A stretch of DNA of 64,000 bases. Origin: Acanthochlamys bracteata. Taxonomy: Eukaryota; Streptophyta; Magnoliopsida; Pandanales; Velloziaceae. The stretch covers positions 3,102,501-3,166,500 of the forward strand of contig CM034135.1 of the NCBI GenBank assembly GCA_019914995.1, in the 5' to 3' direction. The translations under genes and the position numbers were made by a program. Of this stretch, positions 7,848-60,818 are shown one piece after another. Each line of letters starts with the position of its first letter. Within the stretch, counting starts at the first letter, position 1. The notes under the pieces were generated by a model. The model worked only from the letters and a program-made list of their open reading frames with translations, made no database searches and had not been told where the DNA came from.

Positions 7848-8468
7848 CTATGATCCGGCGGTGCTAATACGGCGAGCAAGATCTTCAGCAACCCGCGCAA
7901 GTGACTGAAGATTGCACCGGACAATGGTATCAACAAACGCTCTAGTCTCGTCTCTAGTGTTTCCTTCTGGCACGTCAACGACGTACGATTCCACTACAAC
8001 AGTTGTTGTTCCTCTCTCGTGCAACGTCGTCACCGACCGGTAGTTCGCTAGCCTGTGTTCTCCACCGATAACGCTGAAACTTATAACATGTCTTTCTTCA
8101 TCAAGTATCTCCAGCCGTTCTTGACTTGTCGAAGCCGGTAGACCCGAAACAACTCGTACTTCTCTTACCGTGCCTACTTCACCGTCTCCGTGCAACAGGC
8201 AGCAGTCTTTGATAAAGTTTTTGTATAACTGCGGTTGATCGAAGCGGCGGATGACTGACCACACGGTGGAGATTGGTGATGAGATTTCTTGTATTACTGC
8301 AGAGCAGCACTGTGTCTCTCCAGTTGCGTTGTGCTCGTGGTGGTGTGCGACAGGTTCCGGTAGATCGTGTGCCGTGCACCGTTGTGTTGCGCATCCTGCC
8401 ATGCCAATCCTGCTCGTCAACTTCAGCAACTGCTTCTCGGCAGATGGCTTTGGATAGACGCAAGGCAT
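7848..8468 (-). CDS. PYL: ABA receptor, PYR/PYL/RCAR family, PYL4/5/6 type
   Basis: Single-exon gene of 206 residues, the usual length and intronless form of the PYL4-6 subfamily. These soluble START/Bet v I fold proteins bind abscisic acid and then inhibit clade A PP2C phosphatases, releasing SnRK2 kinases in the nucleus and cytosol. Visible features: a variable N-terminus of about 55 residues rich in His and Cys, [15 protein letters not shown] at about 69-83, the ABA carboxylate lysine in FIKDC (K87), the gate loop SGLPA (108-112), [17 protein letters not shown] (118-133), the latch GEHRL (136-140), NYRSVTTLH (142-150), and a C-terminal helix from [13 protein letters not shown]. All gate and latch residues are intact, so it should be functional. 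The start is the first ATG of the frame. A telo-box-like AAACCCTAG lies at 8520-8528 upstream. The exact number (4, 5 or 6) cannot be assigned. Confidence 0.95.
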
Positions 8469-9706
8469 GGTTTTAGTACAAGAGGTAATATTTTCAAGAA
8501 GAACAAACTACAAGAAGAAAAACCCTAGCGCTAGTGGAGATTGTTATTGAGAGGAGAATGGTCAGAGTATAAAGTGGAGTTGAAATTCAATGGAATTGAT
8601 GATCTTTATTTTCTTAGTGGGAGATGGATTTTTTTATGGGGGATTTTGAGACGAAAACAGGAAATAAAGCAAGCAAATTGGAGTTGTTTATTAGAGAAAA
8701 AGTTTTTGTTTGCATTGCATGGGTGGAGATTGGAAGCTTTTTCTCTCAGCGAGGTGGGGTTTTCACTTTCCAGTGGGCTTAACATTCATGTGTAATAGGG
8801 GAAACCAAAAAGCTATCATTTTCCTTCTGTTAACATCACAACAGGGAACAGCTTAGCAACTTGCTTTCATCGGATATTTTCATTATGTTTAGAACCGAAA
8901 TGTCCCGACTCTCCTGAGAAAAGAATTTAGTATATTTTTTCTTTTGAAATTTGTTACTTCGAACGGTCCATATTGAATTGTCATTACTAGAGATACAAAT
9001 AATTTCACACAGACTATGTGCTTATTAGAACGTTGGCTAAATAAAAATTTGTCATTACGTGTTCTTATTCAATATAAAAATATGATATATATCTCCGTAA
9101 GAATATGAAAATTAATTATATCTGACATACTACTTAATCATGAAGAAAACTAGTTTTTATCTGGTGTCTGTTCCGATCAAAATATAAATATTCTATTTTT
9201 AATGTGAAATAAGACTAGAAGATGAATCCGATTGGAGTTGAGGACGAGAAGAAGTGGTTAAAGAGAATTTGAAAAATGTCTCGTAAGAGATTATAATAAT
9301 GTAAATTTATCTCTTAGTTTTATAATAAAATAAAACAAATTGGCAAGTTGTGTTTTGATTAAACGGCACGAGAAGGCAACTTGGACGTGGGAACGCGAAG
9401 GACTGGGATTTGAGTACTGCAAGTGGGAGGGATAGGACAGTCCAGAACCAGCTAGCCTCCATGATTTGCATTGCAGTGCCAGTGCCAAACAACTTGCGAA
9501 CGCCATGAAGATCCTCTTCAACTACATTCACAAAAATGCTTTTTTCTAACAAATAATTGGGCTTTCATCAGGTGATGTACTTAAATGATCGAAGTCTTAG
9601 CCCATCAAGCCCATTTCCTATTTTATACAACAAGGAAATAAATTAAAGAACACCCAACTATACGTCTCTGCGGAACCATAAACATTGACAAGAAGAACAA
9701 GAAAAC
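8469..9706. other. PYL upstream region and intergenic DNA
   Basis: No supported gene. An 81-codon minus-strand frame at about 9307-9552 was not recognised. The stretch next to PYL carries the telo-box-like motif noted under that gene. Confidence 0.5.
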
Positions 9707-10026
9707 TTGGAAACTACTACAATATCATTGCAACAGTTCCAATGTTTCAGTGCCAGTTTTCTGCTTGATCTGACTGTCGTTGGTTTACTTCATGGCTTCT
9801 ATACGTGCTCCGTCAGAGAACAGCGTTGGAGAAGTAGTAGAAGAGAGCAGGAAATCCGCATGTGTGATGTGTTTTCATGGAGATGCATTTATGATGATTC
9901 CACACATCTTCTCTACTCTGGATTGAAATGTTCGTCTCTGAACGATGAAATCGCGTCTGAGAAATTTGGCAGGGTTGATTCCAGGTACCGGAACTTGCTG
10001 GCGACCCCATGGTTGTGATTTACCAA
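9707..10026 (+). pseudogene. orphan first exon of a TBL gene
   Basis: The frame carries the PMR5N/TBL domain start: CDVFSWRCIYDDSTHLLYSG, then LNDEIASEKFGRVDSRYRN. This is close to the first exon of the TBL gene at 12758 ([27 protein letters not shown]). The conserved [12 protein letters not shown] end is destroyed by a frameshift: the DNA still reads gcgaccccatggttgtgattt followed by a GTAATA donor-like site at about 10027. Conserved Cys and Gly residues are replaced (FSGRW became FSWRC). There is no good ATG upstream and none of exons 2-5 appears in the following 2.7 kb. It is a decayed partial duplicate from the local TBL expansion. Confidence 0.85.
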
Positions 10027-12650: not shown

Positions 12651-12656
12651 CAAACT

Positions 12657-12668: not shown

Positions 12669-12757
12669 ACGTAAACACACCACAAGCACACGTACATAGA
12701 ATCAACAGGAAGAGAAATCAATACATATATAGAGTGAAGATAGAAAAGTGATCGCCG

Positions 12758-15357
12758 ATGGCGGCTCATGGCAGCAGCGGGCTGTGGGGAGTTAGAGGCT
12801 ACTTCAAATCTCTACTCAGCTTTTTCCCCGGGTTCCTCTTCGTCGTCGCCCTTACTCTGTCCATAAAAAGTATCACTAACACCGGCGATAACAATCCTAT
12901 CCCAAGAAGGCTAGACATTTTCCTCACGTTGAATAGCAACACTACTGCAACGTCGACGGGGTTAAATATAAAAAATAACGACTCTTCATCATCGACAATC
13001 GTGGAAGAGTTCCTGGAGTCTATCATGGTCTATAGCACGGTCGGTAGCGCCTCTACTGTACCTGCACCTGAAGAGAATGTTAGTGAGACAGAAACAGGTG
13101 ATGAAGAGTGTGACTTGTTCTCCGGCGAGTGGGTACACGATAACACGAGTGGGGCGATGTACTCGGGGCTCGGGTGCAAGTTCTTGCACGATGAGATCGC
13201 TTGTGACAAGTATGGAAGGAAAGACAGCAAGTATAAGAACTGGCGATGGCAGCCCCATCGGTGCGATCTTCCTAGGTACGTGCGTATGTATATACCATTA
13301 ACACTAATAAGCATGCACCTGCTGCATGCATACTGAGGAATTAATATGCTACAATGCGAACTAATCATATATACATTGACATGGTTTGTAACGTTTGTTA
13401 ATAACTTCAAGGAAATAATGGTATATCAAGAGTAGGGAGAGCCAAGAAAAGCTACAATCTTGCTAAAAGCCGCTCGTAAATGCTCAACCAACCATAGCTT
13501 GTGAAAAGTTTTCTTAATTAGAGATTAGTTGACCAAAAAGGCATGCGGTTAGTTTGCTCTTAATTTTTCACAAAAGTTGGGCAGGACTCGCTTCAATTCA
13601 CAGGAAAAACTCCATATTGGTTAGTTGCATGGCTAGCTATTCATGACCGATATATAAGAGTGCATGGTAGAATACCATTATGCAATTTTGTTTTAATTAA
13701 AATACTCAAAGTTTTTCTTATGGAGTTCACTGTATACATACATACCAAAAGTATTTGCTTTGTATAAAAAATTCTCTCGTATTTATTCAGTTCTAGAATG
13801 CAATTTACCGTTTGATGCAACAGGTTCAACGCGAAGAGATTGCTGGAGAGACTCAGAGGAAAAAGACTAGTTTACGTAGGGGATTCTCTGAACAGAAATC
13901 AATGGGTTTCAATGGTGTGCCTCGTGGAATCTGCAATACCTGAACATGCGAAATGGATCGACTACAATGGATCGCTTTGCTCTTTCAAGGCTATGGTATC
14001 CATACAGTAACTTCCTACATAAACACAATCAATTCTCAACCAAGAGATGCTAATTGATATCTATATTTTGTTGTAGAACTACAATGCATCAATCGATTTC
14101 TATTGGTCGCCGTTGCTTGTTGAATCGAACTGCGATGACCCGTACAATCACAGAACGTCGGAGAGAATGATGAGAAATGGAACGATAGAGAAGCACGCGA
14201 GAAACTGGGATCAAGCAGAGATAATTGTATTCAACTCCTATCTGTGGTGGAAGAAACCAAGGATGAAGATGGAAGTCCTGTGAGTACCAAATACTTCCGT
14301 GTTCCAATTCTACCTATGAAATTTTATAGAAATTTCAGCTTTGGCTTGTTAATGAAAACTTGGGAAGTTTCATTTGATTGGTTTTGGTTAATTTTGTGTC
14401 AAACAGGGCCGAATCCGCTCTGCTTGAGGACACGAACAAAACATACACTGAAGTTGAAATGATTCGCGGCTTCGAACTAGCACTGAACACATGGTCTAGC
14501 TGGCTAGAATCTCATGTCGACCCGAAAAAACAGCAAATTTTCTTCATGAGTTTATCTCCAACTCATGTTTGGTAAAGTTTTCGAACATATGATACATTAG
14601 ACCTTCACCTATCGATTTAAGTTTTTAGATGAGTACCATAATCTAAAATAAGAACATTTTCTTATCTCAAGCATAAGAATTCAACGATTGCAATAGCCAT
14701 GACAAGTATCGCATATCCTACATAAATAAGGAAATGCAAGCTTTGAAGCAAAGTTACTGATATCGTCAAGTTAGCAAGTTAATAAAACCCTTTCTGTTTG
14801 GTGCACCTATCAATCCATTTTGAGGATTGAATGGAGAATGAAAATGACTACCATCATACTCAAATAATTTACCATCAATACTGTTTTCTGTTTTGAATGA
14901 ACCATGATAAACCTTTTAGGATTGAAACGTGATCACAATTTTGTTGGTACATGCTTGGCTTCATACTGATAGATATTGCAATTTCCATGTTCTATCCTGC
15001 AGGGGTGAAGATTGGGGAATGGAAAGCGGCCAAAACTGTTACAATGAAACAGAACCAATAATGAAAGTTGGTTACTCAGGAAGAGGAACAGATCCGGCAA
15101 TGATGAAGATAGCAGCGAACAAAATTCAGGGATTGAATGACAGAGGCGTTGGCGTTCAATTTCTAAACATAACTCAGTTATCAGAGTACAGGAAAGACGG
15201 GCATCCTTCGATATACAGGAAGTTCTGGACCAATCTAACTGAAGACCAACTAGCTAATCCTAGTAGTTACTCTGATTGTACACACTGGTGCCTTCCTGGT
15301 GTCCCTGATGTGTGGAATCAGATCCTGTATGCCTACATTTTTGCGAGAAAGTTATGA
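12758..15357 (+). CDS. TBL: TBL protein (DUF231/PC-esterase), TBL33/34/35 type xylan O-acetyltransferase
   Basis: Five exons with matching phases: 12758-13275, 13824-13995, 14077-14279, 14407-14571 and 15003-15357, coding for 470 residues. It is a Golgi type II membrane protein: short N-tail, membrane segment at about 18-37, a low-complexity stem, then the PMR5N/TBL domain from [11 protein letters not shown] with [12 protein letters not shown], then the PC-esterase domain. The catalytic motifs are intact: GDSLNRNQ at about 192-199 (exon 2) and DCTHWCLPG at about 444-452 (exon 5). [19 protein letters not shown] is typical of the TBL34/35 side of the family, whose members add acetyl groups to xylosyl residues of xylan. 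The donor of exon 3 is CT|GTGAGT and the acceptor of exon 5 is TGCAG. It is a tandem relative of the gene at 17096, with the same intron positions. The substrate is inferred from the family. Confidence 0.93.
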
Positions 15358-17063: not shown

Positions 17064-17095
17064 AATGTTTTGTGTACCTGACCATCCACAAGGGA

Positions 17096-20000
17096 ATGAA
17101 TTCCCCAACAGCCAAGCGAATGCTTTCAAATAACTCCAATCACACCGATCATCTTGCATCAGCATCCCCCATGAGCACAAAAGAGAAGGCCAGCTCAAGA
17201 GAAGACCATGAACAGATGAAGACGCCAAAGAAGAACAATGTTGTGGTTCGGACATGGGGCCTCAGAAGATGGTTCAACTCCCTCTTACTGGTGTTCATGG
17301 CTCTGCTAATCCTATTAACTATCACTCTCACAGTAAACACTGGAAGCAAGCCTGCCGCAACAAAGGAACTCATTGACAGATCAGGTGAGACTTGCGACCT
17401 ATTCACTGGCCGATGGGTGTATGACAACAAGAGGTACCCCTTATACAAGGAAGGAGCATGCAGATTCATGTCAGACCAGTCAGCATGCGAGAAGTTCGGG
17501 AGGAAGGATTTGAGGTATCAGCAGTGGAGGTGGCAACCTCATGGCTGTAACCTTCCGAGGTTTGCTACAGACATCTTTCTATTTCATATAATTTGAACAT
17601 GTGAAATGACCTTTTGGTATTTCAGTCCAACTCAACAAGTTTTCCTTTCCATAACAAATTTGGTGGACGAATACTGAATGTCCTGGTTGCTTTCAGCCAA
17701 AATAACTAGAATGTCACTATACTAGCAATAGATGCCATGCACCCAATCATCAGGCTAACTCCCATTTCAGGGATTGGTTATGCTATAGAGGAGCATTCAT
17801 GTAAGTTTTGCACTAGTGTTGTGTCAATAAGGAACATAGGTTTTGGCAAAAGGAGATCACAAGCCATTGTTAGTATCACCTCCTAGTGATGTATTTGATC
17901 TTGACTTTCAAGTTACTTTTCTCATACTAATACACGGTGAGTAACGTCTGAGTAATTGTAAGCCACCAAACCACTATTATATCTTTCCAACAAGAGCTGC
18001 TAATGCAATATTTTTTCCATATAAGCTAGCAACTAGACTGACCAGTAAAGGGGCTGTACTTTCATGACAGGTTCAATGCCACAAAGCTTCTACTGAAGCT
18101 GAGAGGAAAAAGGTTGACCTTTGTGGGAGACTCTCTTAACAGGAACCAATGGATATCGATGGTATGCCTCCTAGACACCTCCACACCTACTGCCAAAAAG
18201 AACATGGAATTTAATGGCTCTCTCACATCCTTCAAAGTCGAGGTACTGCAAATCCTGACCATGCTACAACAACAGTTACAACTCTGTGTTCCAATCTTAG
18301 CAACAACTATAAACAAGTAGTTATTCCTATAATTAACACTAAAATGGTATGCAATTCATCTACATGAAGCCACTAAAAAATACTTTATCAGCTTTCATGT
18401 ATTGCTAAAAGTAAAAAATCTTCCAAATCTAACATAGCTTCTTGAAATCCAATATAATCTATCTGTATAGTAACAAGGAACAAATGTCCTTATACACCTC
18501 ACAAACTCCAGCATTTTGTGATTCATGCTAAAAGACCTCTTTCCCACATTTTTTTGACAAGAATGTCTTGCAGGATTATGATGCATCCATTGAATTCTAT
18601 TGGGCACCATTAATGGTGGAATCAAACTCAGATCATCCAGTACATCATCGAATAGCAGATAGAATTATCAGAGCTCAGGCAATTGCGAAACATGCAAGGC
18701 ACTGGACTAATGCTGATATACTTGTCTTCAATACATATCTATGGTGGAGAAGAGACACCATGAAGGTCTTGTAAGTACATCATTTGTAAGATATATCTGT
18801 CATAGTGCTGAAGAAAAAAGCAATTATTACAAATTCAGTCTTATTTCTTATTCCAGAAATGCAAAAATGAATAGGAAAAATGTTCTTAGATCCAAAAGAC
18901 TCAATTTGAGGAGATAGTTAGCTGCTTGGTTCACTTCTTTTATCATTTTTTTTCTTTTAACAAATTGCATCTAACAATCTGCATTTAATTACCTGATGGC
19001 TTGCATGGATTAGGTGGGGTTCTTTCGAGGACAAGGATGCAATCATCAAGGACATTCCAATAATGCGGAGCTATGAAATGGCTCTAAGGACATGGTCAGA
19101 CTGGCTTGAGTTTCACGTGGACCCTGTCAAGACCAAACTATTCTTTGTGAGCATGTCACCTACGCACTTTTGGTGAGTCCTTAAGTCCAAACTAATACCT
19201 TTAAGAGAGCAATCAGTCAAACAGAAACTTAGGATTATTTGTAGAACTATATGTCTACTAAAGAACGGTGTTTCTTGATGATTTGATGTCCAAAATCCAC
19301 ATGTCAGAAGATGGCAACCCTTATGTTATGTCCTCAATCAAAAGTTCGCATTAAGGATAAATATAACTTGTCGAGTGGAACATCAATAGGTCTTGCTGTA
19401 AGAACTTAAAGTATTCTCAAAACTTATGTCCGATAATCCAGTAAATTAAATACAGAAACAAAAAGGGATTCCATAGCATATAGCCAACATAAAAGCAACA
19501 GCCGAAACAACCAAAACTCCACCTCATTAAGTGGGATTCGCTCCATCACATACAGAGAAAAGACTTAATAATTAATTCATGAAGTCCTTAAAACTACAAT
19601 AAGAAAATCAATAGGTGACACTAACAGGCAGGCTCGAAAACCTACTTCAGAACAGCAGGCTTAAGCAGAAAATGTTATTGACTTTCTAAAACATGGCAAA
19701 TGAGGTCTTGCTTCTTATCTAGATTCCCATTGCACATCAGTTACCTAGAAAAGCTACACATCATACTGTCATATTTTCTACCAACCATATGTGCAATGCC
19801 CCATGCCATTTCCCTTTTCTGAGAAAACATACTTGTCGTGCTTAAGCTATGTATATCTTCTAACAGGGGTGATGAGTGGGGAATTGATGGTGAGCAGAAC
19901 TGCCATAATGAAACGATGCCAATTAGCAAAGAGGGGCATTGGGGTAGAGGGTCTGATATCAGGATGATGAATATAGTTCAGAAAGCAACTGAAGGACTGA

Positions 20001-20215
20001 GGGCCAGAGGCACGCGCGTTCTAATGCTTAATATAACTCAACTCTCAGAATACAGAAAAGATGCTCATCCATCAATTTACAGAAAGCAGTGGGAGCCTTT
20101 AACCAAGGAGCAAATTTCAAATCCAAGCAGCTATGCTGACTGTATACATTGGTGCCTTCCTGGCGTTCCTGATGTGTGGAATGAAATCCTCTATGCCTAC
20201 ATTCTTTCAAGATAA
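17096..20215 (+). CDS. TBL: TBL protein, TBL34/35-like xylan O-acetyltransferase
   Basis: Five exons with consistent phases: 17096-17559, 18071-18242, 18574-18770, 19014-19172 and 19867-20215, giving 446 residues. A cytosolic N-tail of about 58 residues precedes a membrane segment (about 61-80). The TBL domain starts at [20 protein letters not shown] and runs through [15 protein letters not shown] to [12 protein letters not shown]. The catalytic motifs are intact: GDSLNRNQ (about 174-181) and DCIHWCLPG (about 422-430). [22 protein letters not shown] closely resembles Arabidopsis TBL34 as I recall it. Such enzymes acetylate xylan in the Golgi lumen for secondary walls. The start is the first in-frame ATG; Met codons at 17120 and 17171 are alternatives. 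An ATG at 17064 in another frame opens a short upstream frame overlapping the start. Exon 2 has exactly the same length (172 nt) as in the neighbouring TBL gene. Confidence 0.93.
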
Positions 20216-22599: not shown

Positions 22600-22619
22600 T
22601 AAGATGGCCAATATTTACC

Positions 22620-24973
22620 TCTGGCTCGAATTCAGGACTCCACTTGACATGCCAACGTCGATGTGTCATATTCTGTTAACATATTTACTGCAGTAGTGTG
22701 CAAAAATTTTAAATGTCTGACTGAAAAGTAAAGCATATTATTACAGAAAGTTTAGTTTGAAGAAGGTAATTTACCAATTTGCACCATTCAACTGTGGTGT
22801 ACGACCAAGAACCATTCCTTTTGCATCTACAGCATGTACTGTCTCCTCAATGATGGAAGAAATCTATAAGAAGATGGGTTATAGGAATCAATACTTTGTA
22901 GCAGTTAAACGCTGCAAAGAGAAATTAGTTTCAGTCAATAACTAGCTTTTAAGAGTATGGGAATGCATGACTGCCAAGGTTGATACTCTGCTGTACCTCT
23001 TGAATACAAGCGACTCCAGGTAGCCTCTTGTTGCTACTAAAGGAATTTGAGGATTATCACTAACTTCAGCTAGTCCCCCTCATCCAGTATAATACTTCTT
23101 TGTTCATTCCCTTTGAGCCATATGCAACCAGAAATAACAATATAAGGAGAGGATATGTTCAAAACAGCAACTCCAACGAGAGCTTATGGTTGACGATTGA
23201 GCAAGAGGTAACATGGTCAACATTTATGTAGGATTGCATGAACTATCCGTAAATCCGAATTACAATAAGAGCAAGGAAGCTCTAACAACACATCCACCCT
23301 CCTTGCAAGTTAGTTTTAAAATGTTAGTTTTATATTCTAACTGCCCAACATCAACAGAGCAACAACAACAATAGAGCAACAAAACTCAGATATAGTAGTA
23401 AGCTACTCATTCTAATGTTTGTTGTTGCATACATTCATTGCCTTACAAACCTTAAAAGCTACTAATCCATCCCACTGAATCTCTTGAAGAGTCAACTGAC
23501 TCAGTGTATCAATGAAATATCCAAAATTATCAAGTAAAGATCTAAAAAAAAAATTCTTGTTTCCATCTCAACCAAAAAGAGAAGAGAAATAAAAATTCTC
23601 TAGTCATATGAGTAGAAGTAGATATATTTAACACGTACCATGATGAGGAAGAAGTCTGCCATGACAGAAAACCCAATCTTTGACTTTAAGAACAACCCCG
23701 TGGCATGCCAATTCCAAGCCAAAGGGGCACTTGGCCTGAAAAGTGATGATCTAGAAATGAGAGCCCTTCTGCCTCTGTCCTAATTTATTGGAAAATCTGT
23801 CAGACTAATAGTTGAAACTTCCACAATTGAAAACGGAAGAACTTGAGAGAGTATTGAATATGACTTGATATTGAAAGATCCTGCATTGCTAGGCAATGGT
23901 CGTAGTCAAAACATACATGCCAAACTCTACCCGAAGCAAGATGTGGCTTATCAAATTCAAGCCTAGGTACAGTAATTGTTAGTTTGGCTCCTAGTGACAC
24001 AATGCAGGCTTTCACCAAACTCTGTGCAAGGGACAGTAAACACATTATCCGCAAATCTAATTTGTTTTGGTAAATACAATACTAAGCCCAGCTTTGTCCA
24101 ATCTGAATCCGTGGAAGTATTGAATAAGTTAAAGAACGGGGGAAAGGTCGGATGAAGAATACCTGCATCAAATTCCAACTGCTCCAATAACTATGAGACG
24201 TCCTACAATCTTCTTTCGCCCATCAGAAACACCTATCCATCCAATAAAGGCATCTTCACATACGCCACCACATTCACTTGAGTATTTTACAAAGTCCATA
24301 CACTCGTCAAATGCCCCTGGATCAATGTATCTGAAATCACCTTCTACATTGATGGTTTCATGATTATTGACCTAACCAAGACATGACATTTGATGTTAGA
24401 GCAACTCAGTACCCCATAGACATGCTGACATTCATTGATGCAAAAACTACATAATCTCAAAAGAATGAGTTGGCAACCATCCAGAGATCACATTTCCAAT
24501 TTAGACATGGCAGCATGCAAGAAACTTCTGTAGCTTCTAGGTGTATTTTCTGTGAGAATATCTATTTGCTTCAACCAATGTTGAGCTCAAGATTTCTAGT
24601 GGCAGTAGCTGTTCCTATTTCTGTGCCCTCTATTTATCACAAATTTAAGCATATTGATAACACTTGTTATGCTCGAACACACACCAAAACTTGCTCAAGA
24701 TTTGTTCATTGAATTTTTGAAGAGATAAGTGTTACGATGAAACTGGATACACCAGTCAACCAAAAATTACAGATAACATAAGTTTATTGTAAAAGTTCCA
24801 CTCACCAGTAACAATTCGACGACCGTGAGCGGAGACGAAAGTCGGCGGATCACTGCCGAGGGAGATCGACTTCAGGCTCGAATTCAAGCTCGATAACTCT
24901 TGAACTTTTCGAGGTTGAATGAAGACGAAGGCGAAGGCGAAACGGGTAAGGAGTTAAGGGAGAGAGACGCCAT
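22620..24973 (-). pseudogene. Shewanella-like Ser/Thr phosphatase (SLP1 type) pseudogene
   Basis: Scattered minus-strand exons match the plant chloroplast-type SLP1 calcineurin-like phosphatase in order. Exon 24806-24973 begins MASLSLNSLPVS, then needs a frameshift to reach DPPTFVSAHGRRIV. Exon 24163-24371 reads NNHETINVEGDFRYIDPGAF and, after a frameshift, YWSSWN. Exon 23639-23779 has DWVFCHGRLLPHH with a frame break before it. A piece near 22985-23050 reads VATRGYLESLVFKRYS. One near 22770-22880 has AKGMVLGRTPQLNG, where the metal-binding His of GHTPQ is Arg. One near 22625-22668 reads DVGMSSGVLNSS. The exon carrying the GDLHGD metal motif was not found. With several frameshifts, a lost ligand and missing exons it is dead. 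Functional relatives are phosphatases of plastids. Confidence 0.85.
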
Positions 24974-26339
24974 TGTCGTCGTTGTTGTTGTTTTCTTTGG
25001 AAACGAAGACCGAAAACCTGAAAGAAGTTTTAGAAGTTGTTGGAGGATATTTGTAAGTATTTTTGGAAAATGAGTTTTTTCAAAAAAAAGAAAATTGAAA
25101 ATTTTTTTAAATAAAATTTTTTAATTAATTAAATAATATTTTATAACATAGAAACTTTAATAGTTTTTAAAGTTTGAAAAAATTTATAAAAATAGAAATT
25201 TTACTAAAAATTATGAAATTAAAAGTTGGATGAGTAAAAAATGAAAAAGTATTCCAAATAATGTTGTTAGCGGCTAATAAAAGGCCTTGGTAGAGGGAAG
25301 CGGGAACATTGTTGGGCAATCGTTTGATATGGGCTACACTAATGCGTGTCTAATGGGCTTCAATGGCCCTTTATGAGCCTACCTAAAATTTGTAAACTAG
25401 AACACAACATTATAGGATTAAAAAAGTCAGAAAGATGATTTCGTGATCAACAAAACAAATTGAAACCACAACTTCAACAAAGACGTAAACTCACCAATGC
25501 TAATTAGAGATTGTTAATCGAGTATTTTTAACGATATTTGGATCTTCCTTAATTAATCAATGTAGACGGGGCATTGAAAGTTGTTTCAGAAATAATGTAC
25601 TTATCGTCAAATTCCCCCAATAATAATGAACAGCATTGGCTACATAGCTAGTAGCTAAAAAAATTGAAAGATAATGAAGCCTACCAATTCCCCAACATGG
25701 ACGATACCAGCAATTTTTAAGTAAATAAAAGAACACAATAAATTACTTTCAACTTATTTTTTATAAAAAATATAAAACTAAATTCAGTTTTATTTTTGAT
25801 AGCATAAACTCATTTCTGATAATTCACTTCTTAATCATCACAAATTTCCTTTCAAAATACTAATTTCAAGTAAATAATTCGCCCTAATAATTGGAGTTCC
25901 GATCACTCGTGAGTTGTAGGATAATTTCATACATAGTAGGCATTTATATTGAAGGTTTAGATCACTGTAATGAATTCGTTACGATAGTGAATCAAGACAG
26001 TATCGATAGTGATGTAAACGTTCCTGGCTTTCTGTGTTCTAAAATCTAAACTAAGTTGGCGAACTTCAATTTCTTTCACTGAACAAGCCAACTTCTTCAT
26101 CTTTTCAAATATTAATTATGATTTTTTTCAAATATTAATAAAAATTTGAAGCTACAAACACAAAGGCATATATATAAGATCTTTTACGGTAACTAATATT
26201 AAATTTATGGAACACTCAACATGGATCACGACATGTATAGTTTCAGAATTTGATTGCGTATATTATATATAACATAGACTGTAATTATATGCCTAGTATG
26301 TATATAAAGTCATTGGATTTGACACACTTGTTTTATTTA

Positions 26340-42173: not shown

Positions 42174-42783
42174 CGCCGAAGAGAGAAAGTCACCGATCAA
42201 CAGAATCGCTCACTCGTTTGTCAAATTTATAGAGAGACGGAGCAGCAGAAAAGCCAGTAGTACGAACAGAAGAAAATTACGCCTGGATTATCTGGGAATT
42301 ACTAAAAAACCATTCTGATTCAAAATTTTGAATTAATAATAATTTTGTTTTTTATTTTTAAGAGCTTACCTGACATAGGTGTGTAAACGGGTTGGATTCG
42401 GGTAAGATTCAAGAAAGATCCTAGCCCCAATTCTATAAAAGTTTATAGTTCTTTATCCGAGTCCACATATGAAAATTTAAGATTTATATTGGAACCCACA
42501 CGCTTTCAAATTCAAATCCTAAATATTGAAATATTTGTAAAATAATTTTTTTTAAAATAAAAAGTTTATTTTATTTAAAATAAATATTTTTAAAATATTT
42601 TTATTTGTACATAATTATTCGTGTTTTATTATAATTTTCAGTTGTTATTAGAAGATCTTCTGTATTGAGATTTGTCGTCGGTTATTCCGATTCCTAACAG
42701 AAATTACATCGGATCCTGCCAACTTATCGGGTGTTCGGATATTTACATTTTACACCCTGACGTGTATAGATAGAAGCTACTTC
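42174..42783. other. TERT upstream region, shared with the divergent MATE pseudogene
   Basis: About 600 bp separates the TERT start codon from the first MATE-related frame on the other strand. The TERT-proximal 60 bp is GC-richer and likely leader; the rest is AT-rich. No clear TATA box was seen in either direction. Confidence 0.5.
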
Positions 42784-47626: not shown

Positions 47627-50493
47627 ATGTCAGCGCCAGAGGTTATAACGTAAGATTACTAAGCTGTTAATCTTCTGTCTTTCCTTGTTATACTAGTTTT
47701 ATAAATTCTTAGAAAATTTTCTTTGATCTTTGCTGGAATTTTTTTGTTGTTTCTGAGTTTGGTTTGATTGCTGTAACTTAATTTATTCATGCTCTGGTTT
47801 TGTTCATGGTGTTGGATTCAAGAAGGTTGTTTCCGTTCTTGTTACTGAAAGAGTTTTGGTTAAAGAGCCTGTAACATTTAATGAATTTATTAGATGGGAT
47901 TAATGCTTAGACAGTATACACGACCCAGTATTAGTGGCTAATGGGACGGATTTCCTCAATAAGAGGCGAAGTTTTGTTGTAAACATACCTTTTTAAAGGA
48001 GGAAAAAATCATGGTAGGTTTATCTGGACAGAATATGGAAGCAGTGTCTAGAGATATTAAGAAGATCAAATGGAATTAAGTGGCAGCACAATTAGATTGC
48101 ATGATCTCTGTGACAAGCTATGTTGTGAGAAAAAAATATTAACTTGGCAATTCATTCTTGATTCAGCATAATTATACATGACAAGCCACGTTTTGAGGAA
48201 AGCAGAAAGTTAAATTGGTAATTTCATTTTAGATGTAGTGTTTCTAAGAAATATTATAGATATAGTGATCCTCAGATATGTATGAAGTGCTATAAAAAGT
48301 GACCCATTTGGTCTAGTGTAATGCCTACGCAGAGAAATAGGTGAATTATTGGTTGTCAAATAGAGCATGGAATGAGCATTTGAAAAATTAGCATAAAGAT
48401 CCTTTGAACCTGGTTATTAAACAGAGTAAATGTTGATCCATAAATCTTAAAGCGAAGCAGCATTTTATCTCTTACACAACCATGCTACTAAAACAGCTAA
48501 TCTGACATTTTGTTGTAATGTCCCTGCTCTTTTGAGTAATGTATGGTTTGTTTTGCATGGTCAAAATTCATGAGTACCTTCTTTATGTTGTTTCTTTCCA
48601 CTTCTGATTGCATTGCATTTCTTTTGTGAATCTGCATAGCTAGATTTGGAGGAGGAGGCATTACGATGAATTGATATGACTGTTGTAGGTATGAACTTTG
48701 AGAAACTCATTAAGGCCTTTCTTAATTCTAAATTACAAAACAACTATTCTAGTTTCGAGGTTATAAATTTTAATTATCTCAGACGGTCATCCTAATTATT
48801 AAAATAAGAATGAAGTGTGAATCCTGCGAATGACATGACTTTGGAGTATCTAGTTTGAGATAGACATGAATTGCAGAGGTACATGTAATGTTTGCTGACT
48901 TTTTTAGCTAAGTTAAGAGATCATATTTAATTTCATCATTTCCAAAGCATGTATAATATCTGCTCATATACAACTTACTTCCTATCTGCGTGTAGTTGGA
49001 GCCATATCATTTAGCTTTTATTTTTGTTAACGTGTGTGGCAAGGTCAGATGTAGGCCTCTCTTTTCGGCTGACCAAAAAATATAAATAGGTCATATGTAA
49101 GCAACTGAACCTTATTCTTAGAGAGAGCACTAGTCTTTTTCTAGTTGCCTATCCCTGTGGTACTTCTGCGCTAAGGGTTCCCGCTGAAAATCATGCGCTA
49201 ACTTAATTGTGTCATCATATTCGCTTGCTTAATTTCAAGAAGGTCTGGGAATTGGTTGGACAAGTAATACTGCTGATAGTAGTTAATGCTTTTTATCTTC
49301 ATGGTAAGGATATGGGTTAGAACTATAGAGTCAAAGAAAGCTGATCCTGGTTGGCTTTGCAAGTTTTCTATTATTGTAAATTGTCGTGGACATGCATTGC
49401 GTGTACTTTTCCATTGTTTGTTGGTGACGTGTTGAATCTTTTCTTTGTGATCCTCATACAAAAATTGATAAACCACTGCACGTAATAAACATATTATGAG
49501 CATTTGGAGCTTGCAAAGTTTATCATGTAGCATGCATGATCAATTACTCTGCTATAGAACACTCGTGTTGAATTTTGTTTGTCTTTTAGGAAGAGAAGTA
49601 GGCGCAAGGGGCCCAAAAGTGTAGCAGAGATTCTTGCTAAATGGAAGGAATTCAACAACAACTCTTCCAAGGATAGCAGCACTGGAAGGAAGACGACTCC
49701 CAAAGGCTCTCGGAAAGGCTGCATGCCTGGAAAAGGAGGCCCAGAGAATCGAAGCTGTAATTACCGTGGTGTGAGACAGCGGACTTGGGGAAAATGGGTG
49801 GCTGAGATCCGAGAGCCTAATAGAGGTAGCCGGCTTTGGCTAGGTACCTTTGCTACTGCCTTGGAAGCTGCTCATGCATATGATGAAGCTGCAAGAGCTA
49901 TGTACGGCCAATACGCCAGGCTCAATTTCCCTGAAGGTTTTGCTGATGTAGCTGCAGCACCCTCTCATACAGCTCCTACATCATTTGAATCTTCTGTTAC
50001 GACTTCACATCATTCCAATCTTTCTTCTGTCGAAGAGTCAGAGGCAAAGTTCCCGAAACTTGAGCCAGACATACTACAGAGCAGTCATCCAGTGCTAATT
50101 CCAGATGTTCCAGATGCTCACAGAGAAGTGAAGGTAGAGGCTAGTGAAAACCATGAACCGTTTGAATCTTTTTCACATTCAGAGGAGGTTCCAGAAGAAA
50201 TGTTTGACATTCAAGACTTGCTGAGGGTGATAGATGATGATCCAACAAATACAGGAAATGAAGAAGCCTATGGAAATTCTTACTGGCACTTTGGAAGCCC
50301 TTCATCATTGTCATTCCAGATGATGAACCCGGATGCTAAGATGCTGGGAACCTTACATCATATGGACCCTGGTCACAGTGTTGCAGATTATAGCTCTAGA
50401 CACTTGAAAAGAATGAAGGAAAAACCAGATTTTGGATTTTCTGCAGGTCAAGAGTTTTCCAATGAGCACCTGTGGGAATCAACAGGAGGCTGA
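47627..50493 (+). CDS. DREB2: DREB2-type AP2/ERF transcription factor
   Basis: Two exons: 47627-47649 (MSAPEVI plus two bases) and 49590-50493, giving 308 residues. The donor AC|GTAAGA and acceptor TTTTAG join in frame. A basic nuclear signal [10 protein letters not shown] (about 9-18) and the DREB2 block [12 protein letters not shown] (19-30) come first. The AP2 domain (about 66-123) has [20 protein letters not shown] and [20 protein letters not shown]; Val78 and Glu80 in WVAEIREP fit DRE/CRT (A/GCCGAC) binding. A Ser/Thr-rich stretch after it ([17 protein letters not shown]) sits where DREB2A has its destabilising negative regulatory region. An acidic C-terminal part with [14 protein letters not shown] is a likely activation domain. 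These factors turn on drought, salt and heat genes. The 1.9-kb intron after codon 7 is typical of DREB2 genes. An ACGCGT (CAMTA-type) box lies 40 bp before the TATA box. Confidence 0.93.
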
Positions 50494-51608: not shown

Positions 51609-54405
51609 ATGGCAAGTGTTGAGATAAAGCTGGATGGTCTCGTTGAGTGCTACAACGTACCGCGATCCGGCACCAACGGTGGCTTGTGGGCTGGCGCTCA
51701 CTCTCTTACCTTCGCTCTCCCTCTTCTCTCTGTACAACTCTTCCTTGTCTTCGTCACCACCCGCACTCTCCACTTCCTCCTCCGCCCTCTCCGGCAACCC
51801 CGTGTCGTCTCCGAAATCATCGTACGAACATGTCCAAACCTTAAATCCAAAATTCAAGAATTCTAACGAGTAGTTTATTGATTTTATTGTATGATAATGC
51901 AGGGTGGAATAATCTTAGGACCATCAGTGCTTGGCCGACATGACAAATTTAGGGAAACTATTTTTCCCCCGAGAGGGAAGCCGGTGCTTGAAACAATCGC
52001 GGCGTTTGGTCTCATGTACGTTATATTTCTTATCGGAGTTAAAATGGATCCCGGAGTAGTGAAGCGGTCCGGAAGGAAAGCTTTAGTCATTGCTCTGTTA
52101 GGTCACCTTGCATCCACCGCTGCCGCGTGCCTTGCTTTTCTGATTGCCGGACGAAACCCGTTCAACTTTAGCGGCGTCGTTGTTGTTCTTTCGGTATCTG
52201 CAGTGCTCGCGCTGAGCTCGTTCGCCGTGCTTGTTCCCATTCTCGCTGAATTCAAGCTTCTGAACTCCGAGCTAGGCCGCACTGCTGTATCGGCGTCCAT
52301 GACCAATGACGGACTTGGTTGGGTGATCGCACTCTGCTTCGTCATGGTGCAGGCTAGGCCTGCGGGTGCCGCAGCGCCGATATACGTTCTCCTTGCTGTA
52401 GCTATGTTGGCTGCTTTCATATTATTTGTGGTGAGGCCGCTTGCCTTGTGGGTGGTCGACAACACACTGCCAGGAAAACCTGTTGAAGAGGGGTACATTT
52501 TCGTGCTGCTCATCGTCGTGCTGGTTGTGGGCTTCTACAGCGATGTCATCGGTACAAACACGTTTCACGGAGCATTGATACTTGGACTAGCAATCCCCGA
52601 TGGACCGCCACTCGGTGCTTCACTGACGGAGAAGATTGAGTGCATCGTCACCGGCCTACTCCTGCCGCTGTACTACGCACTTACGGGGCTGTACACTGAC
52701 GTGTCATCAATCAGAGATAAACATGTCTGGGGTGCTCTTCAGCTGATTCTAATCTTCGGTTGGGCAGGGAAGCTGATTGGAACACTACTTCCGTCGCTCT
52801 ACTACGGCATTCCGTTCCGCGACGCCCTGTCGTTAGGCTTATTCATGAACTGCAAGGGCATTGTTGAGGTGATCACCTATAATTACTGGAGGACTAACAA
52901 GGTATAATAACTCTGTTCCGTGCTTCCATTTCCAAGAATGTTGTTTCTCTTTCATTCAATTTCAATCACGTCTGAATTTGAATTTGAATTTGATTTGTAG
53001 TTGCTGGACGATCAAACGTTCGCGATCTTAATATTGTCAAACGTGGCAGTGACAGCTATGGCGAGCCCATTGGCAATGTTGTTATACCAACCATCACGGC
53101 AGTACGTTGTCTACAAGCGGCGGACAGTACAGCACACACGGCCAGACATGGAGCTTCGGGTGCTGGCATGCGTGCATGATCAATCACATGTCCCGCCAGC
53201 CATGAGTTTTCTTGAGTCCCTCTATGCTACACCGGAATCCCCCATTTGCGTCTACGCTCTCCATCTTGTCGAGCTCGTTGGCCGAGCTGCTCCTCTGTTC
53301 ATCCCCCACAAGATGGCTCTCGCTCGTTCACCTTCACTAACACACCACGCGTCCAAGTCCCACCACATCATCAACGCCTTCCTCCACCTCGAACAGCGGC
53401 ACCCCTCCGCCATATCTGTCCATCCGTTCACAACAATCTCACCATACGCCTCCATGCACGATGAAGTCTGCCGCCTCGCGCTGGAGAAGCGGTCCGCAAT
53501 CATCCTACTTCCGTTTCACCGCAAACGCGTTCTCCCTGGCGCAGTAACCGCAGTCGAAGGCAGCAACGGACTCCGCACCGTTAACCGCAATGTGATCCGC
53601 AATGCCCCATGCTCCGTTGGTGTTCTTGTCGGTGCTACAGTAAATAATCCTGTCACCCTCAGTGGTGAATTCTCTTTACGTGTCGCAGTGTTGTTCTTCG
53701 GTGGAGAAGATGATAGAGAAGGGCTCGCTATTGCTGCACGCATGGCACAACACCCAAGTGTCGCTCTAACCGTAGTACGGTTTTTGCCAAGCCGGAGCAT
53801 AAGAGATAACCCAGTCGAGAGAAGAATGGACCTAAGATTGCTAGACGAGTTCCGGCACGAGAATGCGAGAAATGAGAGAGTGGAGTACAAGCAGGCACTA
53901 GTGAGGGACATGGAGGAGATTGTGACAGTCATACGAGCTCTAGAAGGCGGAGACTATGATCTCATGGTAGTAGGAATGCGGCACCGGTCGAATTCAGTTC
54001 TATCAGAAGAGATGGCTACTTGGGGTGACTGCCCGGAACTCGGTGTTGTCGGAGACTTCTTAGCATCACCAGATTTTGACGTTAGGTTCTCGGTGCTCAT
54101 TGTTAAGCAGCAGGACAGGGCTGGGGATGATGATGGGGATTACGCAGCAGGTGCTGCTGCAGGCGAGCAAGTTGCTCACGAAAGAGACCCTTCGCCTAGG
54201 AGGATTGTGGGGAACGCGCTCTATGTAAGAACTCTTGATCTCTCTCTGATCATCTGTTTCAGCTTCAGTATTAGTTATGTTCTAATATTCGAAATATTGC
54301 TTCATGAGTTGTATCCTCTGTTTACAGTTGAGCTAATTGATGGTCGGTTTTCTTTATGTTCAGATGGAAGACCTACAAATGGGATCCGTAAGAAGTGAAC
54401 TATGA
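51609..54405 (+). CDS. CHX: cation/H+ exchanger, CHX family (CHX15-like)
   Basis: Four exons in phase 0: 51609-51821, 51903-52901, 53001-54224 and 54364-54405, giving 825 residues, the usual CHX length (about 800). The N-terminal half is a CPA2 Na+/H+ exchanger domain of 10-12 helices. It starts LPLLSVQLFLVFVTTRTLHFLL and QPRVVSEI|GGIILGPSVLGR. The transport motif is SMTNDGLGW (N206, D207). The membrane part ends near FMNCKGIVEVI..LLDDQTFAILILSN. The C-terminal cytosolic half has two USP-like domains: RPDMELRVLACVHD.., ICVYALHLVEL, SPYASMHDEVCRLA, VLFFGGEDDREGLAIAARMA and YDLMVVGMRHR. CHX proteins move K+ and protons across endomembranes or the plasma membrane. NCKGIVEVITYNYWR replaces the more usual NTKGLVELIVLNIG. 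The gene is clearly GC-richer than its surroundings. The last exon encodes only MEDLQMGSVRSEL. Subclade assignment is tentative. Confidence 0.93.
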
Positions 54406-54862: not shown

Positions 54863-55161
54863 CTACTGCCTGCCACCGCCAGCGTTACCTCCCTGGAACA
54901 GTTCGTTGATCTTAGACTCCAAATCCTCCAGCCGGTACCTGACTAACCTCTCACCCCCAGCCGGTACCTGACTAACCTCTCACCCGGTCCAACCTCCAAT
55001 GCAGCCTTGAACCTTGTCAGAGAACTACGGTATGCATCCTCCACCGCCCTTACTGTTGCCGTGCGCATCTCCCTGCGCAGATTCTCATCCGGGACAACCC
55101 ACTCCCGCTGCATTAGCACGATCTCCTCTAACCACGCGTTAAACAGCCTTAAAAGGAACAT
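54863..55161 (-). pseudogene. EXO70 C-terminal fragment
   Basis: The minus strand reads FNAWLEEIVLMQREWVVPDE, NLRREMRTATVRAVEDAYRS, SLTRFKAALE and RLVRYRL, matching the C-terminal bundle of EXO70 exocyst subunits (W.VPD.ELR...AYR.F..RF). A 29-bp duplication (54928-54985) then shifts the frame so that the expected EDLESKINELFQGG tail is read out of frame; that tail is still present in the DNA, followed by TAG at 54863-54865. The rest of EXO70 (about 500 residues) is absent. It is a truncated, broken copy. EXO70 normally tethers secretory vesicles at the plasma membrane. Confidence 0.88.
54928..54985. repeat. exact 29-bp tandem duplication
   Basis: Copies at 54928-54956 and 54957-54985 are identical (ccagccggtacctgac...ctcaccc). 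As 29 is not a multiple of three, the duplication frameshifts the EXO70 fragment. Confidence 0.95.
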
Positions 55162-56898: not shown

Positions 56899-58788
56899 AT
56901 GCCGTGCTTGAACTTGTCAACCAACGTGAGCCTCGACGGCATCGATACTTCATCGATTCTCTCTGATGCTACCAAAACCGTTGCTCGAATCATTGGGAAA
57001 CCTGAATCTGTAAGCTTTTTATTTATTTGATTACTTATTTTAAATTTTTTTTAAGGGATTAGGAAATTAAATGTTCTTAAACCTGAATTTTAGTGGATTC
57101 TGCTGTGTTCTGCGGTTAAAACTTTTTTTTATCCCTTCAAGTAAACAACAATATCATTGTCTCAGTTAACATCTTGATTGCTGAAATATCAAGTGATAAC
57201 CTGTATTAAGCTTTAACTGGTTGTTTGATTGTTGTTATGCTCGGAGAAATACTTCTGACTCTTGACACTAGAGACATTTGTAGTGAAAGTGGTTCCAAAT
57301 CGAGGTGATATTAATCAAATGGAAATTTGTCAGGTTAATAATTGTGCATATTGTTGGTTAGTCTTGAATGCTTATGTTCACTTTGTAAAAGGAGTTGGAA
57401 TCCTGGACTTTATGGAAGTGGCTTTGCTTTGGGCAATTGAAGGCAATTTGAATTGGCCTGTCAGAGCACATGAGTGATAACTGAAGCAGACCTCATGGTT
57501 TGGTTGTGGTTTTATTAATCTTGCTGTAATCTATAGTTCATTTCTTTGTTAGCTTGCAAACTGCATGATTATTGATTGTGCAAACTTAAATTTATCATTG
57601 TACATATGTATGTCAAAGGATTTTGTAATGTTGACGAGCAAACATCCATATGCGTAGGGAACGATCTGATTTAGCAAGCAGTTTCTAGAGCTGTGGTGCT
57701 TACTTTATGTTCACTATTAGAATAACCGGATGGTGAATTCATTTTTCCTTTTAGGAAATTGCTTTATTTTATTTTATTTTGTTTTGTTTTATTTTTATTG
57801 GCTGATGTTCAGCTTGTTATCACTAACATCTGCCTGATCAAACAACCACTCTTAGTTGGTAGGTTTGACTATATTTGTTAACTTGTAAACTGCGTCATTA
57901 TTGGTAGTACAAACTTAAATTTGTCTTTGTACATAAGTATGCCAATGGTTTTGGTAGTGTTGTTTAGCAAGCATCATATGCTTAGCAAACTATCTGATTT
58001 AGCAAGCAGCTTTTTAGGATTGCAACATCTGTGCTTTCTTTATGTTGACAATTAAAATAATTGGATGATGAATTCATTTCCCCTTTTGCAATTTGCTTTC
58101 CCCTTGATTGAGTGGTATTTCTTCTTGTTATCAGTAACGTCTTATCACCTGGTCAAACAATTTGTTATTTCCTAGTTGGTGTAATTATATTTATGACTGC
58201 TGTACATTACTTTTTCCTGAACTTACATTTCTCTCAAAGTATGCAAAGTCAGTTCTTTTCCTTGTGTATTTTGTAGTATGTGATGATTGTGCTTAAGGGA
58301 TCCGTGCCAATGGCATTTGGTGGGACAGAGCAACCTGCGGCTTATGGGGAATTGGTTTCAATTGGTGGACTTAATCCTGACACTAACAAGAAACTGAGTG
58401 CTGAAATTGCATCAATCCTGGAAACAAAGTTGTCTGTCCCAAAATCTCGCTTCTTCCTGAAGTTCTATGACACCAAGGCAAGTAATTTTACTGTTGACTT
58501 ACCGTAGACTGGGTGTTTGTTTGCTGTTTCTTCTCATTGGAATTCTCCTCTTTTACTAGGTGCATCCATCTCAAGAATATGCTCAATGTTTTCATGCTTT
58601 ACATCAGCAGTAAATCATGTAAAATCACAGTTGTTTGTTGCTTGTATCTTGTAGTCTCCAACCTACTTAAGCAGTTTTTGCATATGGTGTATCTTTAAGT
58701 TAAAACCATTTGGTACATGACAGTATAATGAGGTCCTCTGTTTCGTTTGCAGGGTTCAAACTTCGGCTGGAATGGGTCTACTTTCTAA
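56899..58788 (+). CDS. MDL1: MIF/D-dopachrome tautomerase-like protein, MDL1 type
   Basis: Three exons: 56899-57009, 58277-58477 and 58753-58788; 115 residues, the usual size. Starts MPCLNLSTNVSLDG, so Pro2 becomes the N-terminal residue, the tautomerase base in this family. Continues IIGKPESYVMIVLKGSVPMAFGG, ELVSIGGLNPDTNKKLSAEI and SVPKSRFFLKFYDTK|GSNFGWNGSTF. It is nearly the same as Arabidopsis MDL1 as I recall it. The protein forms a trimer; plant MDLs have been linked to immunity and flowering time but their substrate is unclear. Intron 2 has a GC donor (AAG|GCAAGT) with a normal TTGCAG acceptor. Intron 1 (about 1.27 kb) holds a 310-bp duplication. No signal peptide, and no SKL-type peroxisomal ending such as MDL3 has, so a cytosolic location is likely. 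Confidence 0.95.
57549..58183 (+). repeat. direct duplication of about 310 bp inside MDL1 intron 1
   Basis: Copies at about 57549-57862 and 57877-58183 share in order: (t)tta.cttg.aaactgc, acaaacttaaattt, tctgatttagcaagcag, ctttatgtt.ac, gatg.tgaattcattt, cttgttatca.taac and ctagttggt-like segments. Divergence is moderate. Both copies are intronic. Confidence 0.85.
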
Positions 58789-60143
58789 AACAGGCATCTG
58801 TTCTGTTAACTGTAGTATGTGGACTCAATAATGTGTGGAAAGTACTGTGGTAAAACATGCTGCAGCTGTAGCTCTATTGTTAGGCTGGTTCAAAACTCAG
58901 AGTGCCTCTTTACTAAGAAAAAGATTTTTATTGTTAGGCCAAACTGAGCTCATACTCAATGAAAGTATGTTTTAATATTCTGATATTTCTTCTTTACATG
59001 ATTTGTGTTCTTTACCAAACGCATAATTTTCTTTACCAAACGCATAGTGTTCTTTACATGATTTGTGTTCTTTACCAAACGCATAGTGTTCTTTACCTAA
59101 CGCAGTTATATTGGATAGTCTACGCCTTCTTCTTTACATGATTATGGTTCTTTACCAAACGCAGTTATATTGGGTCGGTTACGCCTTTCCTTGTTCTGTT
59201 TCGAAGGTTCAGATCTTATGATGTGTTTAATGATCAAGACTAGCTCTTCTTTTTGGGCAACGCCGGCTTCATTTTCCCCAGTAACTAGAAATTCTTGTTA
59301 TAAGAAATCAGGTAGATATATTGATATGCATGACGTTTTTTATAATCATGTTTAAATTGGTTTCAGTGGCAAATTGGTCGATTTAATTTCAGAATTTCAA
59401 ATTCATTCGTGTTGGTCTGATCCGATTCAGAATCACTAAGGAGTTGTTTCAAATACACGAACTTTACATTTCAGATTTTAAGTTCAACTATTTTACGTAT
59501 TTTAATTGTCATTTTAAATTTTATTTTTATTTTCACATCGAATTTTTTTTTTATCAAAATTTAATCACTTGATTTCTACTTTTACGAAATTTAGTTTTAC
59601 AATTTATGTAAATCTGAAACACGAACTAAGAAATCGAATCTAATAAAATCCTTTGGTTATGGGGTCGTTAAATATTGTTAAAAAAACAGATTCAAAAAAT
59701 CTTTTTTGAATTAAATAAGTTTATTTTAATTAACAAATATTTATAATAATTTTATATAAAATTTTTGTATTAATAATTTAAAGAAATTAAAATTACTGTA
59801 AAACACATTTGAATAAAAAATTAAAGAAAAATAAAAAAAATAAAACCATTCCTATCTATTTAGAGCGCGTTGGGACCGCGCGTATTTATGTATCACCGTG
59901 TATTACGATTCCAAAAAGTTACTGGTAGAGCACGCAATTAAATTCCTATTATTTTATTTTTGTCCTCTGACGACGCGGTAAACCAACGTATTCTTCTTTC
60001 CTTTATAACCAATCCACCTTTGACCGGTTTTTCTTCTCTTTCCCGTTTCTTTCGCACCTAACTCCTTCACGAGAGAAGAGAGAGAACCAAACGCGTGCGT
60101 CCTCAGATCTCGATCTACACGAAAGCAAAGAGAAACCGAAACC
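58789..60143. other. MDL1 3' region, minisatellite and PRA1 promoter
   Basis: Apart from the short tandem repeat at 59001-59165, no other feature is supported until PRA1. The stretch 59690-59850 is very AT-rich. A ctttataa at about 60001-60008 could be the PRA1 TATA element. Confidence 0.5.
59001..59165 (+). repeat. minisatellite with ttctttaccaaacgca units
   Basis: At least five copies of ttcttta(c/t)c(a/t)aacgca, some followed by tagtg and interspersed with ttctttacatgatt(tg) spacers, form a compound tandem array just beyond the MDL1 3' end. Confidence 0.85.
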
Positions 60144-60818
60144 ATGGCCGCCGTCGCTGCATCTCCGCCGCCGATCATTCCTGTTACTCAATCCCAAGCA
60201 GTTCAAGCGAACGCAGCTGCTGCTGCTGCGGACGCTTCCCGTGTTTCCGCAGTACGCGCTTTTCTGTCGAGGATAACGGAATCTTCCCGGCGTTCGCTCT
60301 CTCAGGCTCGCCCGTGGTCGGAGCTCTTTGATCGATCTGCTTTAACCCGCCCGGAATCTTTCTCCGAAGCCCTCGCTCGTGCTCGTAAGAATATTCCCTA
60401 CTTCCGTCTCAACTACTCTCTCGTTTTAGCCGGTGCTCTCGCTGTGTCTCTGTTAACTAACCCTACCGCCCTTGTTGCTCTCGCTTTGCTTCTTGCGGCT
60501 TGGTCTTTCCTTTACCTTCTCCGCCCTGCTGATCAACCCCTGGTTTTGTTCAATCGCCAGTTTTCGGACCGTGAAACTTTCATTGGTCTCTCGTTGTTAT
60601 CCGTTTTGATTGTTTTCCTTACCTCTGTTGGATCTGTTATTGTTTCTGCTCTGCTTGCGGGTGCGGCAATCGTCTTTGCTCATGCTGCTTTCCGCGTGCC
60701 TGAAGATCTCTTCCTCGATGAGCAGGACGGTGGCAACCAAACTGTGGGATTGTTGTCCTTTCTCACCGGTGGAGGAGCTCCTAATGTCGCTGGCCCTGCT
60801 GTAACCGTCCGTGTCTGA
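60144..60818 (+). CDS. PRA1B: PRA1 family protein, clade B
   Basis: Single exon, 224 residues, typical of plant PRA1.B proteins. A Pro/Ala-rich N-terminus is followed by ARPWSELFDRSALTRPESF and ARKNIPYFRLNY. Two hydrophobic hairpins follow (about 91-126 and 147-181) separated by RPADQPLVLFNRQFSDRET, then AFRVPEDLFLDEQ and a Gly-rich tail ending VTVRV. PRA1 proteins are membrane receptors for prenylated Rab GTPases that help move Rabs and cargo between ER, Golgi and endosomes. The start ATG at 60144 is the first in frame and has a good context (accATGG). It lies in the same conserved neighbourhood as the PYL, TBL and DREB2-type genes. Confidence 0.95.
   Translation: MAAVAASPPPIIPVTQSQAVQANAAAAAADASRVSAVRAFLSRITESSRRSLSQARPWSELFDRSALTRPESFSEALARARKNIPYFRLNYSLVLAGALAVSLLTNPTALVALALLLAAWSFLYLLRPADQPLVLFNRQFSDRETFIGLSLLSVLIVFLTSVGSVIVSALLAGAAIVFAHAAFRVPEDLFLDEQDGGNQTVGLLSFLTGGGAPNVAGPAVTVRV

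Follow-up and report, generated by a model that had tools for sequence, protein, structure and literature searches.

A 64,000-nucleotide stretch of the Acanthochlamys bracteata genome (positions 3102501-3166500 of contig C10; here called the window) carries a row of unrelated genes in which a PYL abscisic acid (ABA) receptor, two TBL genes, the microRNA precursor MIR390, a decayed MATE-like gene, a DREB2 gene and a PRA1 gene follow one another, and related segments are found on contigs C15, C8 and C11 of the same 195.5 Mb, 557-contig assembly. The window is best read as one copy of an inherited ancestral angiosperm block, nested in an older and a younger duplication and kept together by passive linkage, with a probability of about 0.86. 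As a case of something already known, it is a good example of deeply conserved microsynteny within nested genome duplications. An earlier note, made from the sequence of this stretch, had named five families at 7848-60818, and Pfam and Rfam matches confirm all of them (PYL, TBL in two copies, MIR390, AP2/DREB2 and PRA1); the list was incomplete, as the stretch also holds TERT, the MATE relic, a CHX antiporter, an EXO70 fragment and an MDL (MIF-like) gene. Searches for gene families across the genome give lower bounds throughout. The anchors of the block are the following.

7848..8468, minus strand: PYL ABA receptor, a single open reading frame of 206 amino acids, PYL4-6 type by best match (Pfam; PYL5 in PDB)
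12758..15357, plus strand: TBL gene 1 (PMR5N 74 bits, PC-Esterase 114.3 bits)
17072..20215, plus strand: TBL gene 2 (PMR5N 81.1 bits, PC-Esterase 115.9 bits)
30060..30169, plus strand: MIR390 precursor (Rfam RF00689, 85.8 bits; gathering score 77)
42766..45395, plus strand, limits from the C15 alignment: decayed MATE-like gene, with frame changes and stops relative to the C15 copy
49579..50493, plus strand: A-2 type DREB (DREB2), main exon (AP2 55.6 bits)
60144..60818, plus strand: PRA1, B group by position only (PRA1 165.5 bits)

The PYL protein has PYL5 as its nearest solved chain in the PDB (E-value 1.3e-65), and the alignment of the two shows the SGLPA gate and the HRL latch that mark the PYR/PYL family. 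Both TBL genes have PMR5N in the first exon and PC-Esterase in the last, which places them in the TBL family. The MIR390 hairpin folds at -57.7 kcal/mol, scores above the Rfam gathering score and has a conserved mature arm, identical between the C10 and C15 copies. These two copies, the second at C15:3037770-3037879, are the only loci over the Rfam cut-off in the genome (45 of 31046 first-look candidates scored; their echoes on the minus strand and a C3 match of 22 bits were left out), and in the control, 8 of 14 genomes gave matches, none of them over the cut-off. In the translation of the DREB2 exon the AP2 domain is preceded by a [27 protein letters not shown] stretch, which we take to be the A-2 (DREB2) signature; a PDB search with the DREB2 proteins found AP2 domains and, apart from these, a single weak match to something unrelated (E-value 0.36). 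The decayed MATE gene lies between MIR390 and DREB2 and, judged from sequence, is likely to be a sixth anchor that the earlier note missed.

Arabidopsis locus numbers run in chromosome order, and At2g40340, At3g11020 and At5g05410 are presumably DREB2C, DREB2B and DREB2A. The comparison with Arabidopsis uses published locus numbers. PYL4, PYL5 and PYL6 are At2g38310, At5g05440 and At2g40330 (PMC5723141), TBL32, TBL33, TBL34 and TBL35 are At3g11030, At2g40320, At2g38320 and At5g01620 (PMC8575163), and MIR390a and MIR390b are At2g38325 and At5g58465 (PMC6508847). At2g38330 appears as a MATE protein in a list of plastid transporters (PMC2246286), a table of DREB genes includes At2g38340, At2g40340, At3g11020 and At5g05410 (PMC3845248), PRA1.B2, PRA1.B3, PRA1.B4 and PRA1.B5 are At2g40380, At5g05380, At2g38360 and At5g01640 (PMC3613420), MDL2 is At5g01650 (PMC4407349) and EXO70B1 is At5g58430 (PMC8303320). 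By these numbers, the six anchors PYL-TBL-MIR390-MATE-DREB2-PRA1 stand in the window in the order of At2g38310/320/325/330/340/360, that is, PYL4, TBL34, MIR390a, the MATE gene, the DREB gene At2g38340 and PRA1.B4. Unlike this Arabidopsis set, the window has TERT, CHX, MDL and the EXO70 fragment in addition, its TBL genes are in tandem and its MATE gene is decayed.

Three other Arabidopsis groups, At2g40320-40380 (TBL33, PYL6, DREB2C and PRA1.B2), At5g05380-05440 (PRA1.B3, DREB2A and PYL5) and At3g11020-11030 (the DREB gene At3g11020 and TBL32), resemble the blocks on C8 and C11 in being made up of PYL, TBL, DREB2 and PRA1 genes and in having no MIR390 among the loci looked up. The At2g38, At2g403xx and At5g054xx sets that the earlier note had named are correct by these published numbers. 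Further pieces of the neighbourhood are TBL35-PRA1.B5-MDL2 at At5g01620/01640/01650 and EXO70B1-MIR390b at At5g58430/58465; the distance between EXO70 and MIR390 on C15 is 13 kb.

Within the genome the closest partner of the window is on C15, which is collinear with it over most of its length, in the same orientation and in coding as well as non-coding DNA (blastn). Identity in the aligned pieces is mostly 67-87% and reaches 93% in short ones, and the rate of synonymous substitution (Ks) between the two PYL genes is 0.43. The copies have lost different genes. DREB2 and PRA1 are absent from C15, as are the greater parts of TERT and CHX, but C15 retains an open EXO70 gene and open MATE exons, both of which are decayed on C10.

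The block on C8 (2.07-2.12 Mb) is collinear with that on C11 (6.18-6.22 Mb), which runs in the opposite orientation; Ks between the two is 0.33-0.54 for the PRA1 and PYL genes, and DREB2 has a value of 0.93. The gene order on C8 is PYL(-) PYL(+) TBL(+) SNF2(-) DREB2(+) PRA1(+), in which PYL, TBL, DREB2 and PRA1 have the same order and strand as in the window, and C11 has two PYL genes, DREB2 and PRA1 in the reverse direction. When C10/C15 is compared with C8/C11, the PRA1 genes have Ks values of 1.8-2.7, and those of PYL and DREB2 have reached saturation. Both older blocks have a pair of divergent PYL genes (C8:2078394-2081049 and C11:6211522-6215118) where the window has one; the two members of the C8 pair are 72% identical, with a Ks of 1.10.

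The nearest relatives of the anchors are found in these same blocks. The window DREB2, used as a query, has its best matches after itself at C11:6201242 (186.7 bits) and C8:2097774 (178.5 bits), and the next among 102 hits scores 128.6 bits. The PRA1 genes of C10, C8 and C11 form one clade (support 99/100) in a tree of 8 of the 12 genome matches, four partial ones being left out. In the TBL tree of 33 sequences, the TBL of the C8 block is sister to the two window TBL genes together with their C15 partners (95/92), and TBL gene 1 is sister to its first C15 counterpart (100/98); the second C15 counterpart is a long branch and is probably decayed. This tree covers 33 of 39 loci (six with alignments shorter than 85 residues were dropped), 31 of the 39 were retrieved by hand from among 152 exon matches, several TBL loci lie outside it, and like the PRA1 tree it was drawn with a midpoint root. 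By score the window PYL matches C15 at 405 bits and 90% identity and then C8 and C11 at 250-267 bits and 62-65%, and the remaining PYL genes reach at most 179 bits over shorter stretches (46-62% identity). Because the nearest relatives of DREB2, PRA1, TBL and PYL agree, the C10, C15, C8 and C11 blocks are true duplicates and not chance neighbours; these segments are collinear, lie on different chromosomes and have one another's genes as nearest paralogues, as expected of paralogons within a genome.

The age of the linkage depends on the host. The microRNA miR528 is known only from monocots, and miR403 only from eudicots. The genome has a single exact copy of the 21-base miR528 sequence, within a clean hairpin of -57.6 kcal/mol, and a search for miR403 with at most one mismatch found no match, so that the host plant is most likely a monocot by these sequence markers. 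A 66-residue stretch of the ribosomal protein eS7 scores 106.5 bits with its best chains, which we take to be those of wheat, and 103.9 bits with the next, presumably those of Arabidopsis, a margin too small to tell monocot from eudicot. With a monocot host, the order common to the window and Arabidopsis would predate the monocot-eudicot split and therefore all of the duplications of Arabidopsis itself. The proposal of the earlier note, that this is an angiosperm linkage group older than the Arabidopsis duplications, is thus supported, because the host looks monocot and because this genome holds both older and younger duplicates of the block itself.

A history that would account for these data begins with an ancestral angiosperm block PYL-TBL-MIR390-MATE-DREB2-PRA1, which would also have included MDL and EXO70 and would have been transmitted by ordinary inheritance, the window being one of its copies. 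An older large-scale duplication in this monocot lineage would have given the C10/C15 and the C8/C11 types, and a later duplication, probably of the whole genome rather than of a segment, would have doubled each type. Independent gene loss would then have followed in each copy, while Arabidopsis would have kept its fullest equivalent at At2g38310-38360. A whole-genome duplication near 24 million years ago is reported on the Acanthochlamys bracteata stem (PMC11891173), and nothing ties the window to that event. Collinear anchors, differential gene loss and nested duplication depths are also features of paralogons and of conserved angiosperm microsynteny in general, from which the block is no different in kind; what is specific here is which genes it holds and how deep its conservation goes. 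Among the matches listed for searches with Arabidopsis loci and synteny terms, no account of this gene block was found in the titles and abstract openings of open-licence papers.

Several observations weigh against this interpretation. The collinearity with Arabidopsis comes from published locus numbers, the genome compared directly being that of this plant. DREB2 and PRA1 are missing from C15. No TBL was found near the C11 block among the matches listed and no TBL alignment was obtained there, and searches for MIR390, MDL, EXO70 and MATE exons found none in the blocks on C8 and C11. The Pfam evidence for the MATE gene is weak, with one C15 exon matching MatE at 22.6 bits (cut-off 24.9) and no Pfam match for another C15 exon or for two window reading frames at 42766-45395. 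MDL stands next to PRA1 in the window, and so it does at At5g01640/01650, where their order is reversed according to the locus lists used, and the Arabidopsis linkage of MDL is unsupported from the duplication side, because a duplication database is stated to have given the AtMDL genes no duplicate counterpart (PMC4407349). A laccase gene lies beyond MDL on C15 and has its nearest relatives on C8 and C11, but these are 337 and 219 kb from the PYL genes, outside the block. Finally, a PYL tree puts AtPYL5 with neither block type, on long branches and with weak support.

That common gene families came together by coincidence is extremely improbable. The AP2 and TBL families are large (at least 97 and at least 152 exon-level matches), but when loci hand-set from exon-level lists (16 PYL, 11 PRA1, 97 AP2 and 30 TBL) were placed at random, 0.6% of 20000 trials had at least one PYL with PRA1 and AP2 inside 60 kb and none of the 20000 had at least two, and the order, orientation and genome-wide nearest paralogues all agree. 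This grouping is actually present around C10, C8 and C11; the fair count of independent lineages is two (C10/C15 and C8/C11), as duplicate blocks are not independent events. A rather unlikely alternative, which deserves more weight, moves the older duplication back in time, so that the two types would have separated before the monocot-eudicot split, with At2g38 corresponding to C10/C15 and At2g40, At5g05 and At3g11 to C8/C11. In both plants, as far as loci were looked up, one type only bears MIR390 and MATE, and the high or saturated Ks values between the types also favour such an early separation; however, AtPYL5 is about equally near to both (67-68% identity to the C10/C15 PYLs, 62-69% to the C8/C11 PYLs), and independent duplication followed by similar loss is expected to leave the same pattern. 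If it were true, flowering plants would have inherited an already duplicated PYL-TBL-DREB2-PRA1 segment, both forms of which survive in Arabidopsis as well as in this monocot, and MIR390 would be positionally orthologous across the monocot-eudicot split.

It is also improbable, more so than the early separation of the types, that selection holds the genes together, through long-range regulatory elements or as a co-regulated module of ABA, drought and auxin responses. The long life of the gene order speaks for it, as does a non-coding segment of 197 bases, 0.7 kb downstream of MIR390, whose identity between C10 and C15 (87%) is above that of the alignments over PYL (83%) and MDL (81%). But single genes have dropped out of the copies, genes unrelated to the anchors stand between them (TERT, CHX and MDL here, SNF2 on C8), and the blastn matches of C10 with C8 and C11 are either coding exons or repeated segments whose positions in the blocks do not correspond; at that sensitivity no non-coding element is clearly common to them. 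A functional gene cluster in the sense of jointly retained members was considered and rejected, as the copies have lost individual members. The link that the earlier note saw in the block between ABA sensing, drought transcription, wall acetylation and the control of trans-acting small interfering RNAs finds no support for the same reason and given the unrelated genes in between. Passive inheritance is preferred to a functional cluster because the copies lost different genes and because TERT and CHX, unrelated to the anchors, lie among them.

The non-coding segment matches nothing else in the window or in fetched loci of at least 3 kb, and no Rfam family matches it. Its window copy folds moderately better than shuffled sequences (z-score -2.53), which is not true of its C15 copy (z-score -0.70). 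Because of the C15 value and the lack of an Rfam family, no RNA is proposed there. The segment and the other features of the window are listed below.

2395..3581, plus strand: TBL-like remnant (PC-Esterase 47.3 bits at 3213-3581)
9707..10018, plus strand: possible fragment of a TBL gene, an isolated first exon (PMR5N 24.4 bits; curated cut-off 29.2, not reached)
22600..25014, limits approximate, minus strand: putative decayed gene common to C15 (73-76% DNA identity)
30870..31066, no strand assigned: non-coding segment 3' of MIR390 (87% identity to C15)
33434..42200, minus strand: TERT (Telomerase_RBD 109.8 bits, TERT_C 54.5 bits)
51609..54398, start approximate, plus strand: CHX cation/H+ antiporter (Na_H_Exchanger 143.3 bits, CHX17_C 67 bits)
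54961..55155, minus strand: EXO70 C-terminal fragment (78% identity to residues 558-622 of the C15 protein)
56899..58504, end of last exon not delimited, plus strand: MDL, MIF/tautomerase-like (first-exon motif at 56899; MIF 42.1 bits at 58277-58504)

The TBL-like remnant has its counterpart at C15:3007606-3008779 with 75% DNA identity, and the two group together in the TBL tree (98/84). Retroelement-like reading frames, copia-like by eye, lie among the C15 TBL genes (1270-5642 of one fetched C15 segment). The putative gene at 22600-25014 corresponds to about 3027490-3032705 of C15, has a serine-rich start and is a gene or pseudogene in both copies; three window reading frames and the C15 reading frames tried gave no Pfam match. 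For TERT, the C15 matches end at 34915 and restart at 42027, and five of its seven reading frames have no C15 match. The TERT domains are retained in the window, and the C15 duplicate (about 3042200-3043790) is short of about 7 kb of the gene body; from these sequences TERT, once duplicated, may again have a single working copy. EXO70 is the reverse of TERT, DREB2 and PRA1, being full-length on C15, with an open copy of 637 codons (941-2851 of another fetched C15 segment; Exo70_C 347.6 bits), and a C-terminal fragment in the window. Short dispersed repeats at 22320-22575, which recur on C15, C8 and C11, and at 46459-46691, which recur on C15, are probably small transposable elements.

Gene loss after genome duplication is seen here at different stages of its usual course, in the decay of the MATE gene and in the reciprocal losses between C10 and C15. 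A block shared in the same order between a monocot and Arabidopsis, with a microRNA and at least five protein genes, gives positional orthology for PYL, DREB2 and MIR390, and such orthology aids the transfer of gene names and functions across flowering plants.

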